A stretch of 41,166 bases of DNA, from positions 1 through 41,166 of IMG/VR virus record IMGVR_UViG_3300023109_000046; one strand, given 5' to 3'. The stretch comes from a virus. The notes under the pieces are model-generated. The model saw only the letters and a list, made by a program, of their open reading frames with translations. It did no database searches and was not told where the DNA came from. The position numbers were made by a program, and so were the translations under genes. Numbering within the stretch: the first letter of the stretch is position 1; every line of letters begins with the position of its first letter. Below, in pieces: positions 11,111 to 16,542 of this stretch.

Positions 11111-11194
11111 GGAGGGGTTCCTGAGCGGCCAAAGGGATCAGACTGTAAATCTGACGCGAAAGCTTCGGTGGTTCGAATCCACCCCCCTCCACCA
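11111..11194 (+). tRNA. tRNA-Tyr (GTA)
   Basis: 84 bases including an encoded CCA. The acceptor GGAGGGG pairs with CCCCTCC; the anticodon stem TCAGA/TCTGA holds loop CTGTAAA with anticodon GTA. A long variable arm (type II, as in bacterial Tyr tRNAs) and the T-loop GTTCGAATC are present. First of a four-tRNA run. Confidence 0.93.
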
Positions 11195-11332
11195 AGCCAA
11201 AAGTTTCTTATAATATACAATGTATATTTTACGAAACATAAATTTTCAAGAAATCGAATAATTCGCAGAAACCCCCTGCGGCAAGTGACGTTGGAATATA
11301 ATTTATTTTGATATTTCGACTAATCTTATTAA
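11195..11332 (+). other. Intergenic spacer with AT-rich inverted repeat
   Basis: No gene seen. AATATAC-AAT-GTATATT (11212-11228) is a perfect 7-bp inverted repeat 18 bases after tRNA-Tyr, possibly a processing or weak termination structure. Confidence 0.35.
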
Positions 11333-11340
11333 TATAAATA
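11333..11340 (+). promoter_or_regulatory. Late promoter box before tRNA-Ala
   Basis: A perfect TATAAATA 12 bases before the first base of tRNA-Ala. If real, three tRNAs and the small ORF would be transcribed late, which differs from the early tRNA expression known in T4. Confidence 0.45.
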
Positions 11341-11352
11341 CATGTAGTATCT

Positions 11353-11428
11353 GGGGCTATAGCTCAGCAGAAAGAGCGCTTGATTTGCATTCAAGAGGTC
11401 GGGGGTTTGACTCCCTCTAGCTCCACCA
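11353..11428 (+). tRNA. tRNA-Ala (TGC)
   Basis: 76 bases with encoded CCA. Acceptor GGGGCTA/TAGCTCC; anticodon stem CTTGA/TCAAG with loop TTTGCAT, anticodon TGC; D-arm GCTC...GAGC. The T-loop reads GTTTGACTC, a slight departure from the usual TTCGA. Confidence 0.92.
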
Positions 11429-11446
11429 ATTTTATAGGTAACTAAT

Positions 11447-11662
11447 ATGAATACTTCTAGCGAGGGCAATTTTGTGTATATCCGACCATCAGAAGATGGT
11501 ACTGGTGAGTGGTGGTCAAAATTAAATAATGATGAGTTTACCATAGACTCAGAAAATTTATTTCTATACCCATCAGCAGACAAGTCTGGTCAATGGTGGT
11601 ATGATGGGAAAGAAGTGTATCCGCAATCTCATTCGCACTTAGAATATATTCATAATAAATAA
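11447..11662 (+). CDS. Small protein inside the tRNA cluster, 71 aa
   Basis: ATG 11447 with TAGGTAAC upstream. The product has two similar halves: RPSEDGTGEWWSKLNNDEF and YPSADKSGQWWYDGKEVY share P-S-x-D-x-(T/S)-G-x-WW, so it is an internal duplication of a small Trp-pair motif. It is acidic and soluble. Not recognised. It sits between tRNA-Ala and tRNA-Asp on the same strand, so it would be co-transcribed with them and released by tRNA processing. Confidence 0.6.
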   Translation: MNTSSEGNFVYIRPSEDGTGEWWSKLNNDEFTIDSENLFLYPSADKSGQWWYDGKEVYPQSHSHLEYIHNK

Positions 11663-11682
11663 TAATAATAATAACAAATTTA

Positions 11683-11759
11683 GGACTGGTAGTTCAGTTG
11701 GTTAGAATGCTGGCCTGTCACGCCAGAGGTCGCGAGTTCGAGTCTCGTCCAGTCCGCCA
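11683..11759 (+). tRNA. tRNA-Asp (GTC)
   Basis: 77 bases with encoded CCA. Acceptor GGACTGG/CCAGTCC; anticodon stem CTGGC/GCCAG with loop CTGTCAC, anticodon GTC; T-loop GTTCGAGTC; D-arm with GTTGGTTAGA. Confidence 0.94.
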
Positions 11760-11760
11760 A

Positions 11761-11785
11761 TTAAAGTTTGCTCGACAAACTTTAA
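11761..11785 (+). repeat. 10-bp hairpin between tRNA-Asp and tRNA-Ser
   Basis: TTAAAGTTTG-CTCGA-CAAACTTTAA is a perfect inverted repeat starting 2 bases after the CCA of tRNA-Asp. It is AT-rich with no clean T-run, so it may be a processing signal or weak terminator. Confidence 0.6.
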
Positions 11786-11827
11786 TATAACGAACTAAAT
11801 AAGTTAAAAGGTGTTTAATAACAGATA

Positions 11828-11918
11828 GGAAGATTGGCAGAGTGGTCGAATGCACTGGTCTTGAAAACCAGCATACCTTAATAGGGTATCGAAGGTTCGA
11901 ATCCTTCATCTTCCGCCA
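11828..11918 (+). tRNA. tRNA-Ser (TGA)
   Basis: 91 bases with encoded CCA. Acceptor GGAAGAT/ATCTTCC; anticodon stem CTGGT/ACCAG with loop CTTGAAA, anticodon TGA. The long variable arm (ATACC...GGTAT) is typical of Ser tRNAs, and the T-loop is GTTCGAATC. It ends 3 bases from the stop codon of the convergent minus-strand gene, with no terminator between. Confidence 0.94.
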
Positions 11919-12110: not shown

Positions 12111-14612
12111 TTATATTGCGCCCGATAGCGCAGAATTTATTTTAGTAAAACTATTTTCCGAATTATATGCCCTTGATGGAATTACTGTACTGCTACTATT
12201 AGACACGTTGTTATTTGTTATGTTAGACAAATTATTCAGAATTGGGCTCAGATTGCTAGATGAAGTTTTTTCTATTGCATTTTCTTTCATCGATATTGCT
12301 GCTGCGTTCTTCACTTGTGGACTCGAAGAGGTTATTTTCCCCATAATGTCTGTCGGTGCACCAGAAACTTGCTGCAGCGGCGCTGTGGCGGTATTTGTTG
12401 TTCCATTACCAATTACTGTAGAACCTCCCGCACCTAGTGCTTGCGATCCTTGTGCGAGCGCTGTTGGTATGGTAGTTACGTTATTAGAACTGGTAGAGGT
12501 TCTGCCGACAAGTATTGACTTATTTTTGGCAACTGATGCATTGGTGACGGATCGCCTAGAATCCGGGCTGGCTGATGCGCTGGTAGTGATATTTGGCTGC
12601 TCGTAATTGACTACTTTAGATACCGGAGATATGGTAGATCTCGAAGAGTTTCCTTCGTTGTCCTGCTCAAACATATTCCCTACAAAGGTTCGCGTGTCCG
12701 ACGCTTTGTCTGCTACGCTCCCTGCTAATTCCTTTGCAGTACTCATGGCACCCGCGGCCGTGTCTTTTGCTGAGTCTATAATGTTTCCTGCGAACTCAAT
12801 CGGACCCGAAATAAACCCTTTAATTTTTTCGATTATCCCATTAAAAAATTCTACAATAGAATTAAATGCGGAATTTATTGTCTCTCCAATTTTCTCTGGT
12901 AATGCAGTAACGAATTGACCGATTTGTTTTGGGAGGTCGGACTGAAAAAACGCAATGGTTGCTGCAATCGCTGCACCGACTGCCATGATTTTTAGTGCGA
13001 TTGGGCTGAGTAGCATCATAAGCAATCGAGGTAACGTCGTTAAGAATTTTCCGATCCCCTTAAACATTCCAAGACTTCCTGAGATAGCGCCAAGAACTCC
13101 GCCAGTTTCCTTTCTAGAATCTTCTGAAGATTCTATAGAATCTTCTAACAGGCGGTTTTGGACAGTCTCTACTCGCAAATTAGCTTGTTCCGTTCGCTTT
13201 TTTTCTCGCTGGGTTTCTATTTCTCCCATCTCACTATCCGATTGAGAAGAATTTATGAATCCCAATAAGTCTCGAATCTCTGCAAAAATGGGAGAGCTGT
13301 CAGACTTTTCGGATTGTCCTACTGATAATTCTTTCGAGTCTATTGGAGTTATTACTGAGGACCGACCTTCAGCCGCGATTGGCGTTTCGGTCAGAACTTC
13401 AGCGGAAGTTTCTGCTCGCTCTATAGTGACTCGGGTTTCTGCTGGATCAGCCGATACTTCTTTCGAGTCTATTGGAGTTATTAATGAATCTATCGCGGCC
13501 GGTACAATAGGAGTTTCGGGTAGGACTCCGACTGGAGTTTCTGCTCTCTCTATAGTGACTCGGGTTTCTGGGCCAGCACTAATAATCGAATCAGACAAGC
13601 TTGTATTATTAGTCGCGGTTCCTCCTTCGACAGAAGTCAATCGGGTCATTTCCGACGAATCCCCCGAAACTTGATTTATTTCTGTTGCGGCATTATTCGT
13701 ACGGCTATTATCAACTGTTTGTGGTGCTTGGGATTCGTTTATAGAAACTTGATTCGCAGAGGCCGCGCCGGCCGTCGGAGATTGAACAGAAACTCGTTCG
13801 TTATTGGTCGGAGATAGGTCAAGTCCGACTCGTTCCTTCAATTCTCGTATTCGCAACTCTTCTGCAGCTACATTTTCCTGTTGCGCCTTTGCGATCTTTG
13901 ATTGTTCTATAATATGATCGCGCTGTTCATTATAGATCTGTTCTTTAGTTTTGCTTTCTTCTTCTGCGCGCTTTGACAACTCTTCGTCGGTAATATTTAA
14001 TCTTTTTTGTACGTCGGATTCCGAGATCTGCTCTCTCAAAACTTTTCTTTCTTCTGCATCGATCCTTTCTTGTTCTCGGAACAGTTCTCGTTGGTGCTCT
14101 CGTATTGAAGCTTCTTCTTTTTTCTTTTTTCTAAAATTGTTAAACGTTATCACGTTTTTCTTAATACCATCTCCTAAGAATTTTATTCCTAACGCGAGCA
14201 ACGGGCTGTCGGACACCACACCAGCGACTACTGCGCCAATGTTCGTGACTCCCTCAGTAAGAGTTTCTGTTATTTTTGATCCTACCTCGTTCATCAGAGA
14301 CGAGTCGGCCCGTACCCGCTTATCGTGCATTTTTATTAGCGACTGGAACTTATCCTTATCGGAGTCGCCGACTTCTGCGGAAGATTCGATCAGCTTTCCG
14401 ATATTGTCCATATCTTTTCGGCTAGATCTTCTATCAGAAGCACTCATATCTGATTGCTTCTTGACTAGTTCTGATAGCTGTCGTATTGCCTCGGCGGTAG
14501 TATTAGATTCCATTTCGCCAGACGCAGCATCTAGACTAGCAGACAATCCCTGATAGTCTATATTTACCGATTCCAATTTATCGATTACTGAGTCTAGTGT
14601 TGCTTCCGACAT
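12111..14612 (-). CDS. 29: Tape measure / baseplate hub protein, gp29-like
   Basis: 833 residues (T4 gp29: 590). It would span the inside of the tail tube, set its length and be ejected on infection. The layout fits: helical N-terminus, a hydrophobic stretch (about 117-145), a long charged helix region (about 155-260), a low-complexity Ser/Thr/Pro-rich linker with a 43-residue tandem repeat, a strongly hydrophobic pair near 530-560 (LMMLLSPIALKIMAVGAAIA, then ATIAFF), amphipathic helices and a Ser/Asn-rich C-terminus. Position among gp51, gp26 and gp54 is the main reason for gp29; sequence identity to T4 is not evident to me. Its ATG overlaps the upstream stop (TAATG). Confidence 0.75.
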   Translation of the reverse strand: MSEATLDSVIDKLESVNIDYQGLSASLDAASGEMESNTTAEAIRQLSELVKKQSDMSASDRRSSRKDMDNIGKLIESSAEVGDSDKDKFQSLIKMHDKRVRADSSLMNEVGSKITETLTEGVTNIGAVVAGVVSDSPLLALGIKFLGDGIKKNVITFNNFRKKKKEEASIREHQRELFREQERIDAEERKVLREQISESDVQKRLNITDEELSKRAEEESKTKEQIYNEQRDHIIEQSKIAKAQQENVAAEELRIRELKERVGLDLSPTNNERVSVQSPTAGAASANQVSINESQAPQTVDNSRTNNAATEINQVSGDSSEMTRLTSVEGGTATNNTSLSDSIISAGPETRVTIERAETPVGVLPETPIVPAAIDSLITPIDSKEVSADPAETRVTIERAETSAEVLTETPIAAEGRSSVITPIDSKELSVGQSEKSDSSPIFAEIRDLLGFINSSQSDSEMGEIETQREKKRTEQANLRVETVQNRLLEDSIESSEDSRKETGGVLGAISGSLGMFKGIGKFLTTLPRLLMMLLSPIALKIMAVGAAIAATIAFFQSDLPKQIGQFVTALPEKIGETINSAFNSIVEFFNGIIEKIKGFISGPIEFAGNIIDSAKDTAAGAMSTAKELAGSVADKASDTRTFVGNMFEQDNEGNSSRSTISPVSKVVNYEQPNITTSASASPDSRRSVTNASVAKNKSILVGRTSTSSNNVTTIPTALAQGSQALGAGGSTVIGNGTTNTATAPLQQVSGAPTDIMGKITSSSPQVKNAAAISMKENAIEKTSSSNLSPILNNLSNITNNNVSNSSSTVIPSRAYNSENSFTKINSALSGAI
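13331..13569 (-). repeat. 129-bp tandem duplication in the tape measure gene
   Basis: Two copies (13331-13440 and 13460-13569, offset 129) share blocks such as TTTCGAGTCTATTGGAG and TATAGTGACTCGGGTTTCT. They encode two 43-residue units with ETRVTIERAET and ITPIDSKE. The period is a multiple of 3, so length change keeps the frame. Confidence 0.85.
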
Positions 14613-14929
14613 TACTTGCTACCGTTAAATGATTTGCTTGAGGTACTCGTTCCTGCGTACAATCCAAACCAAGCAGCGCCTGCTCCGACAATCACAGAAA
14701 TAAGCCCGGACTGCTCCATCGATGGCGCGGGAAGATCCATATACCAAAGAACTGTTTTGTACAGCAGGAATATATATACGGACAAAAACAATCTAGGAAA
14801 AATTCTCCATGCATCAATCGCCGCAGCTAGATGTATGCTTCTCTGGTATGGATTCGTTCCACTATTAACTGTTCTGGTGTCGACTTCAAGTTCGATTTGA
14901 ACTTTCTTCGTTTTAATTTCTTCTTCCAT
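14612..14929 (-). CDS. Two-span membrane protein, 105 aa, holin candidate
   Basis: The N-terminal 40 residues are polar (KTKKVQIELEVDTRTVNSG), then the amphipathic RSIHLAAAIDAWRIFPRLFL leads into span 1 (LSVYIFLLYKTVLWYM) and span 2 (GLISVIVGAGAAWFGLYAG), with a short Ser/Lys tail. AGGAAG lies upstream, and the ATG follows the gp51 stop by 9 bases. Similar proteins occur beside the tape measure gene in marine T4-like phages. Topology and size would fit a class II holin, but a structural or ejection role with the tape measure is equally possible. Confidence 0.7.
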   Translation of the reverse strand: MEEEIKTKKVQIELEVDTRTVNSGTNPYQRSIHLAAAIDAWRIFPRLFLSVYIFLLYKTVLWYMDLPAPSMEQSGLISVIVGAGAAWFGLYAGTSTSSKSFNGSK

Positions 14930-14938
14930 GTTAACTTC

Positions 14939-15115
14939 CTATTTTTTCATTCTATCTTTTTCTTCTTGTAGATAATTTAGCAGCATTGACACATAGATTT
15001 CTCTTTCCCACGGCATCATATTCTCCAATTCTGTCAGACTATATTTATGGTGTTGCATCAATGCGAAGTTTGTCTGATAGAGAGAATATAAGCTTTCATG
15101 ATATAATCCTATACG
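14939..15115 (-). CDS. 51: gp51-like assembly factor, read by predicted -1 frameshift from gp26
   Basis: The coding part runs from the CGT codon at 15115 to TAG 14939-14941, 58 residues: it begins RIGLYHESLYSLYQTNFALM and continues QHHKYSLTELENMMPWEREI, then YVSMLLNYLQEE. This is the conserved block of short gp51 (baseplate hub assembly catalyst) proteins of marine T4-like phages. No ATG, GTG or TTG lies in this frame before codon TTG-ATG at 15061-15056, which would delete the conserved first 18 residues and has no ribosome site. The frame joins gp26 in the -1 direction at the T-TTT-TTC heptamer, giving a predicted 300-residue fusion. The PWE block recalls the second domain of tail assembly chaperones in other phages. 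Confidence 0.75.
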   Translation of the reverse strand, partial: RIGLYHESLYSLYQTNFALMQHHKYSLTELENMMPWEREIYVSMLLNYLQEEKDRMKK

Positions 15116-15840
15116 AAAAAATCGGAGATTCCTCGCAATTTAAAGGAATTCGTCCATCCACAGTCTGGACATTTCACATCTGCGTCAGTTACGCATTGCG
15201 GCATAGTTTCGAAAAAATTATTAATTTTCTGAAACTGTCCCTGAGATAATGATTCTAAAAACGAAAAGACTTCTTCGTCATTATAATCATTTATGTCGTG
15301 GACTTCATCGCCATCATAGATATATTCGATACAATTTTTTAACATCTTCATCGTATCATCAAAGTTATTCAAATTCTTAATGCCCGTGAGCATTTTAAAA
15401 TCTGGGTATTTCATAATCACGCCAACCATATCTGTCAGCTCGATTTTATTTGTATGATCTTCGGTATTCTCGATCTCTACATTGTCCAAATTGATATCAA
15501 AACGAACATCACACTGAACCAAAGTTCCGTCTTCTGACTTATTGGCACAGTCGTGTTTATAATTTAACTGTATAATATTTCCTACAGATTTGCTGCGAAT
15601 GTTGACAAACAGATATTCTATATCAAACGTTGCAAGAGTTTCGACTTTTATCCCGCTTGTTATGATACAGTTCGATATAACTTGTTTCGCTGCATCTATT
15701 TGTTCTTCGATATCATCTCCCTCATTCGCCATCAATAAAATCTTTTCTTCCTTGACCAAGAATGGACGATATTTAATCTTCTTCTTGTTTGACGGGAGGA
15801 TAAGATTGTAAGTTGGCATATCTAACTTAGGTAGAGCCAT
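15109..15840 (-). CDS. 26: Baseplate hub assembly protein gp26
   Basis: 243 residues (T4 gp26: 208). The opening MALPKLDMPTYNLILPSNKK then KIKYRPFLVKEEKILLMA is the hallmark of the T4 baseplate (gp26) family, with the central FEIE-type core and a C-terminal zinc-like motif (Cys before VTDADVKCPDCG) and FKLRGISDFFV. Although called a hub subunit, gp26 is not seen in the finished T4 baseplate structure, so it is probably an assembly factor. TAGGAGA precedes the ATG. Its last codons hold a slippery heptamer (15115-15121), from which ribosomes could enter the gp51 frame. Confidence 0.9.
   Translation of the reverse strand: MALPKLDMPTYNLILPSNKKKIKYRPFLVKEEKILLMANEGDDIEEQIDAAKQVISNCIITSGIKVETLATFDIEYLFVNIRSKSVGNIIQLNYKHDCANKSEDGTLVQCDVRFDINLDNVEIENTEDHTNKIELTDMVGVIMKYPDFKMLTGIKNLNNFDDTMKMLKNCIEYIYDGDEVHDINDYNDEEVFSFLESLSQGQFQKINNFFETMPQCVTDADVKCPDCGWTNSFKLRGISDFFV
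15115..15121 (-). promoter_or_regulatory. Slippery heptamer T-TTT-TTC for -1 frameshift
   Basis: In the gp26 frame the codons are GAT TTT TTC GTA TAG, so the heptamer has the X-XXY-YYZ phase needed for tandem -1 slippage, two codons before the stop. GAGGAA (15129-15134) lies 7 bases upstream, like the Shine-Dalgarno stimulator of E. coli dnaX. No strong downstream stem was seen by eye. Confidence 0.7.
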
Positions 15841-15876: not shown

Positions 15877-16542
15877 CTATTTAGTAAACTTTTTCCACTT
15901 GCGATAAGCCATAGTTACTGGCAATCTTGCAACTTCGTCAGAAGCATATGCATAGGTTATTTGTCCGATAGATATTGGATATGCTTGCTCGAATGTCACA
16001 GAAAAATCTGCAAATTCATTTAACTCCTTTTTGGCAAATTCGCCCAATCTTTCCCGTACAATTTCGGTAGTTGCTTGCTTCCCGCCAAAATCGGCAGTTC
16101 TCGAATATGAATAAAATTTGCAGTCGGTTACTATGTCGTCGTAATAAGAGACGTGAGCAGTATCATAGTCTATCGCTAAGTCCATCCATTCGCTGAAAAA
16201 ATTTCGTTCTTCTAAATTTTTGCTAAGATATACATTAAATGTCAGATCTTCGTATATCATTCCATACGCAGATTTCCTTGGAGGTCCGTAGTATTGCACT
16301 TCGTCCGTCGCGAGCTGCTTGCCCGGCAATTCTAGATTGTCGATCCGGAGTGTTAAGTTTTCTTGCATTCCGCCAAAGGATTGCTGGATTGCTGCTGGCG
16401 AGGGAATCACTAATGCATAAGTATTAGGGACTAGCAAGTTAGTAGATACTTTAGAAGCGAAATCTGCTACACTAAATTTTCCGCCTCTCTCTAATACAGA
16501 ACTTTTGCTTATGTTACTGCTTTTTGGTGAATTTTCTGCCAT
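15877..16542 (-). CDS. 54: Tail tube initiator-like protein gp54
   Basis: 221 residues with the tail-tube fold pattern. After a polar N-terminus comes NTYALVIPSP, then LTLRIDNLELPGKQLATDEV, a YYGPPRK loop, YEDLTFNVYLSKNLEERNFF, a helix SEWMDLAID, YYDDIV, and a C-terminal strand VTFEQAYPISIGQITYAYAS with LPVTMAYRKWKKF. This resembles tube-initiator proteins between the hub and gp19 tube. T4 gp54 has 320 residues, so this is shorter; a gp19-like paralogue is the alternative. Its ATG overlaps the stop of the upstream gene (TAATG), and it is followed by gp26. Confidence 0.65.
   Translation of the reverse strand: MAENSPKSSNISKSSVLERGGKFSVADFASKVSTNLLVPNTYALVIPSPAAIQQSFGGMQENLTLRIDNLELPGKQLATDEVQYYGPPRKSAYGMIYEDLTFNVYLSKNLEERNFFSEWMDLAIDYDTAHVSYYDDIVTDCKFYSYSRTADFGGKQATTEIVRERLGEFAKKELNEFADFSVTFEQAYPISIGQITYAYASDEVARLPVTMAYRKWKKFTK

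Follow-up and report, generated by a model that had tools for sequence, protein, structure and literature searches.

A probable programmed -1 ribosomal frameshift joining gp26 and gp51 into one tail assembly chaperone gene in a T4-like virus

The locus considered here lies in the IMG/VR record IMGVR_UViG_3300023109_000046, of which positions 1 to 41,166 (virus, 40% GC) form the window, that is, the whole stretch of DNA that was analysed. On its minus strand a gene of the gp26 family stands between a tail tube gene and a 105-aa open reading frame (ORF), the latter followed by a probable tape measure gene, and the end of gp26 is overlapped in another frame by a stretch related to gp51 (Table 1). 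Elsewhere in the window, at 11111-11918 of the plus strand, there are four tRNA genes (Tyr, Ala, Asp, and Ser), and the ORFs called across them are spurious.

Table 1. Features of the gp26-gp51 locus and its neighbours, in window coordinates.
Feature	Position	Strand	Match or remark
gp26, short form, 243 aa	15840-15109	minus	PF12322 T4_baseplate, Pfam E 2.2e-63; PHROG 150, E 1.3e-64
Shine-Dalgarno-like GAGGAA, candidate 5′ stimulator	15134-15129	minus	7 nt upstream of heptamer
Slippery heptamer T_TTT_TTC	15121-15115	minus	in phase with gp26
gp26 stop TAG, terminates unshifted product	15111-15109	minus	
gp51 part of predicted fusion, -1 frame, 58 codons + stop	15115-14939	minus	PHROG 634, E 6.8e-27
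Tail tube gene, upstream neighbour of gp26	15877-16542	minus	PHROG 45 tail tube, E 1.9e-30
105-aa ORF between gp51 and tape measure	14612-14929	minus	PHROG 10198 (function unknown), E 1.9e-21
Probable tail tape measure, 833 aa	12111-14612	minus	PHROG 1272 tail length tape measure, E 2.6e-7
Possible long-range stem in shifted frame, weak	15013-15093	minus	folding z in 105-nt context

Read in its own frame on the minus strand, the 3′ end of gp26 is CGA GGA ATC TCC GAT TTT TTC GTA TAG, in which a single sense codon, GTA, separates the heptamer T_TTT_TTC from the stop. The -1 frame that carries gp51 is open from 15139 to 14939 (minus strand), and its codons ahead of the conserved gp51 block (ATT GCG AGG AAT CTC CGA TTT TTT CGT ATA) include no ATG, GTG, or TTG; the earliest start-type codons of the gp51 frame in the window (TTG ATG) stand after GLYHESLYSLYQTNFA. 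The initial annotation had described gp51 as lacking a start upstream of its block and as lying in the -1 frame to gp26, with a heptamer in the correct phase near the gp26 stop, and the reading of the window's frames bears out both descriptions. A -1 slip at the heptamer leads to a predicted gp26-51 fusion of 242 + 58 = 300 residues, the size originally given. Taken with the comparisons set out below, these features make it probable, at roughly 95%, that gp26-gp51 is a single gene for a tail assembly chaperone whose translation involves a programmed -1 ribosomal frameshift; in other words, this marine T4-like phage would very probably make two versions of a tail-building helper from one gene by -1 slippage of some ribosomes at a run of six Ts.

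The heptamer was followed through relatives chosen because their proteins resemble gp26 or gp51, and not for the motif, from cyanophages and marine, rhizobial, Vibrio, Pseudomonas, and Aeromonas phages. An in-phase T_TTT_TTN is found at the same place in all 112 distinct junctions, with its last base C in 78, T in 18, and A in 16, and in each of the 112 the gp51 block, read in the -1 frame, begins exactly 12 nt downstream of the heptamer, a position that stays constant relative to the block though the gp26 stop shifts by 3-24 nt. In a second set, reached with the gp51 of KVP40-like phages and of phiM12, which may have some contigs in common with the first, the heptamer is present in 59/59, and it is carried as well by five further isolates, Stenotrophomonas YB07, Aeromonas 65, PX29, Caulobacter Cr30, and Rhizobium AF3, the last in the form T_TTT_TTG. 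The gp26 proteins of the junction set fall into 57 clusters at 60% identity (36 at 50%), and thus the conservation does not reflect near-copying. The junction alignment that the initial annotation had proposed across relatives gives the expected result, heptamer and phase being kept in every case outside the Ackermannviridae and the group of Vibrio phage K361.

In counts uncorrected for shared descent, this conservation goes beyond the need of coding, with T at the third position of both heptamer codons: the heptamer's two codon columns are the only ones, out of 230 in gp26, that end in T in 100% of sequences, the runner-up reaching 88%, and the codon just ahead of the P-site, which may specify S, D, N, A, or R, ends in T in every sequence. 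An internal negative control is offered by gp26 itself, since the window has a second in-phase T_TTT_TTC at 15217-15211, at another conserved Phe-Phe pair, after which the -1 frame soon closes, and at that pair an in-phase T_TTT_TTN occurs in only 8/92 relatives. About 13 in-phase T_TTT_TTN occur in the 11,947 codons of the window's long ORFs, and the chance of one in the short overlap, taken alone, is about 1%. A fortuitous heptamer is ruled out by this internal control and by the conservation in 112/112 and 59/59 junctions and in the five isolates, which makes chance untenable.

A different explanation for gp51 is that it is a separate short protein with a start of its own, which would be either the internal Met that follows NFAL or, through coupled re-initiation, an ATG beside the gp26 stop. 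In its favour, several lineages show either TAATG or, three nucleotides inside the gp51 block, an ATG; 89/112 relatives have an internal ATG at gp51 codon 20; and in two database records the annotated gp51 begins internally. However, 80 of the 112 junctions, the window's included, have no ATG, GTG, or TTG ahead of the block or in its first 18 nt, the homologues thus agreeing largely with the initial annotation's view of gp51 as devoid of a start, and the internal ATG is preceded by a Shine-Dalgarno (SD)-like 4-mer in 0/89 cases, vs 59/100 gp26 starts. Moreover, ahead of the internal Met the block keeps its protein sequence, and its variation falls mainly at third codon positions, which indicates that this part is translated; T4 gp51 runs unbroken out of a gp26 domain; and a separate start leaves the heptamer unexplained. 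The internal Met codon (about 15058-15056 in the window) is itself conserved, T4 gp51 having Val there, and in 13/112 junctions a -1-frame stop abuts the heptamer. In the window an independent start is rejected, there being neither a start codon nor an SD, and in general we hold this explanation to be very improbable, although in relatives with an ATG just past the gp26 stop coupled re-initiation could operate beside frameshifting or in its stead.

The two frames might also be joined before translation, by RNA polymerase slipping on the T run and adding a base, and every junction does have six to eight Ts in a row. Against this, the run is of exactly six Ts in 94/112, which is short for transcriptional slippage, the X_XXY_YYZ phase is invariant where RNA polymerase would need no such phase, and the SD-like element and downstream hairpin of many relatives suit slippage by the ribosome. 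Transcriptional slippage is unlikely on account of the T run, mostly of exactly six, and on the whole of this evidence it is barely credible.

With regard to the elements that could stimulate a ribosomal slip, the GAGGAA 7 bases before the heptamer is where the initial annotation had placed it; the spacing had been likened to that of dnaX, a likeness that does not hold, as in dnaX the SD-to-heptamer distance is about 10 nt. Without correction for shared descent, an SD-like 4-mer is found 7-18 nt upstream of the heptamer in 93/112 junctions, vs a background of 8% elsewhere in gp26, and at codon -7 the GAG:GAA ratio is 50:18, vs 772:1834 elsewhere in gp26 (P 2e-13). On the 3′ side, the 45 nt that follow the slip site fold more stably than their synonymous recodings (mean z -1.71; individually significant at P<0.05 in 42% of junctions), later windows past the slip show no excess stability (z -0.56 and -0.25), and two hairpin geometries in relatives display compensatory changes. 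No local 3′ hairpin was found in our window by comparing its folding with that of synonymous recodings (z +0.96), nor in its 82%-identical relatives, and a local hairpin was dropped as the stimulator there on this value. A longer-range stem, 15093-15013, has in a 105-nt context z values from -1.4 (window) to -2.4 (relatives) and may be a product of chance.

T4 provides a natural control for the predicted fusion. Its divergent genes for gp26 (208 aa) and gp51 (249 aa) are neighbours, and gp51 consists of a PF12322 domain (residues 1-201, Pfam E 3.9e-52) with the gp51 tail behind it; T4-type gp51 aligns without gaps through the predicted junction, against SDFFRIGLYHESLYSLYQTNF, and T4 gp51 is thus a natural single-ORF version of the gp26-51 fusion. 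In T4-type gp26 genes the heptamer is absent, the 3′ end being, for example, GAG TTC TTT GAG. Judging from these sequences, T4 uses two paralogous genes where its putatively frameshifting relatives use one: a frameshift predicts a short and a C-terminally extended form of one protein, and T4 has each of them encoded by a gene of its own. The gp26 and gp51 of T4 type each form a single group in an unrooted tree, and a branch with support 90/78 sets the two groups jointly apart, a pattern consistent with one duplication. Within the Straboviridae the frameshift arrangement is kept by ValKK3, phage 65, and PX29, and therefore, even with the tree unrooted, the two-gene state is probably the derived one. 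In a Klebsiella phage KPV15-like sequence, gene 51 is interrupted at codon 120 and reads as two ORFs, which may reflect a real split or a sequencing error.

The exception to the heptamer is found in the Ackermannviridae and Vibrio phage K361, in which a gp51 homologue follows gp26 in the -1 frame with no T_TTT_TTN. In Limestonevirus and K361 a TAATG could serve as the start of gp51, and Kuttervirus-like sequences read GAR ATT TTC ATT TAA TTT, with no ATG, GTG, or TTG ahead of the conserved part, a lack common to most of the Ackermannviridae genera covered. A tentative scheme, which we regard as possible and somewhat less probable than its contrary, is that the frameshift was ancestral for the T4-like superfamily, was lost in T4 by duplication, and gave way to a third solution in the Ackermannviridae; if this third way is true, these phages would have to start gp51 at a non-AUG codon or to slip at an uncommon site, with tRNA-Phe on T_TTC.

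The function of the two products is suggested first by their surroundings. The order in the window, tail tube - gp26/51 - 105-aa ORF - tape measure, is like that of lambda, where it is V - G/GT - H, and the succession of tail tube, gp26/51, and tape measure is found also in phiM12 and AF3; in phage 65 and PX29 a large unnamed ORF occupies the place of the tape measure. A published account of T4 names gp26 and gp51 among the hub assembly chaperones, with gp51 absent from the final particle and some genetic work placing gp26 in the hub (PMC3004832). The initial annotation had viewed gp26 and gp26-51 as the chaperone pair for a gp29-like tape measure encoded just downstream. The chaperone role is favoured by the gene order and by the published assignments in T4-like phages; "gp29-like" stands only in the functional sense, through PHROG 1272, as the 833-aa ORF has no match to the Pfam family of T4 gp29, and "just downstream" has to allow for the 105-aa ORF between. 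The probable tape measure has diverged far more than the proteins encoded beside it, and tblastn against 50,697 named phage records gave no match to it. Binding of gp26 and gp26-51 to it would follow the example of the known chaperones.

Structural models add a suggestion. The AlphaFold models have a mean pLDDT of 92.8 for the window gp26 and 89.4 for a T4-type gp51, and for the former the only PDB entry with a probability above 0.5 is the HK97 tail assembly chaperone 2OB9; the match to 2OB9_A (probability 0.80, TM (target) 0.55; other chain, 0.66) has E 1.2 and is not significant, so the likeness of the predicted folds is suggestive only. The T4-type gp51 model found no match in the PDB with Foldseek, and in BFVD mainly gp26/gp51 relatives; a PDB sequence search with gp26, T4 gp26, and T4 gp51 gave nothing useful.

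The nearest known arrangements are three. (i) The lambda gpG/gpGT pair (Xu et al. 2004; PMC5009743) shares with the predicted arrangement of the window the short form and a long form made by -1 frameshift, the location between tail tube and tape measure genes, and products needed for assembly; here, unlike lambda, the site is T_TTT_TTN, the N-terminal domain is much larger (about 240 aa), and the tail is contractile. (ii) T4 gp26/gp51 belong to the same families, T4 gp26 corresponding to the short form and the 249-aa gp51 to the predicted 300-aa form, but they are two divergent paralogous genes with no heptamer, where the window phage has one gene with a predicted -1 frameshift. (iii) The chaperone locus of the Vandenendeviridae and Andersonviridae (PMC12846349) is likewise that of a myovirus, and its -1 site, a conserved poly-T, again lies close to where the short form ends; it differs in its GTTTTT slip site and in belonging to other phage families.

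In the literature, G-T frameshifting was described as widely conserved "except T4" (Atkins et al. 2016; PMC5009743), and the gp51 of cyanophages and vibriophages as lacking about 200 N-terminal residues and having only about 20% of the length of T4 gp51 (Sullivan et al. 2010; PMC3037559), in a text in which the word "frameshift" does not appear. According to later papers that cite it, Vladimirov, Gautam & Davidson (2022) identified the tail assembly chaperones of T4-like phages (PMC10885494, PMC12846349), "some T4-like phages" having a short gene and a long fusion gene in place of frameshifting (PMC10885494), and poly-T slippery sequences being known in T4-like TAC-N genes (PMC12846349). As these citing papers present it, an outline of the principle was in print by 2022, and we take it as known; what may be new is the breadth of the heptamer's conservation and the misannotation in databases.

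If we accept the above, the majority of ribosomes would terminate at the TAG and give the 243-aa gp26, the short "G-like" form, whereas a minority would slip from TTT_TTC to TTT_TTT at T_TTT_TTC, probably assisted by the upstream SD-like GAGGAA, and would continue into the 300-aa gp26-51 fusion, the long "GT-like" form. Present in a fixed ratio, the two forms would probably cover the tape measure protein and bring in tail tube subunits, as in lambda, during tail or hub assembly. The sequences themselves establish the site, its phase and conservation, the translation of the -1 frame, and the single-ORF counterpart in T4; that the slip occurs and how often, that the SD-like element acts in the window, and that the products are chaperones, we infer.

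This reading would account for an oddity of the marine T4-like phages, in that the roughly 200 residues missing from their gp51 would be gp26, joined to it through the frameshift. In hundreds of cyanophage and marine records gp51 would be better annotated as a ribosomal-slippage join; several such records omit the gene or place its start wrongly, and in those of ACG-2014e, S-CAM1, Melnitz-3, and S-T4 it is unannotated or begun at an internal ATG, the slippage join being missing. The "except T4" statement (PMC5009743) would be qualified as well, since many of the T4-like lineages examined would frameshift and it is the phages near T4 that would have swapped in two genes. The superfamily would thereby offer a natural experiment, in which the ratio of short to long chaperone is set in some phages by frameshifting and in others by two separately expressed genes.
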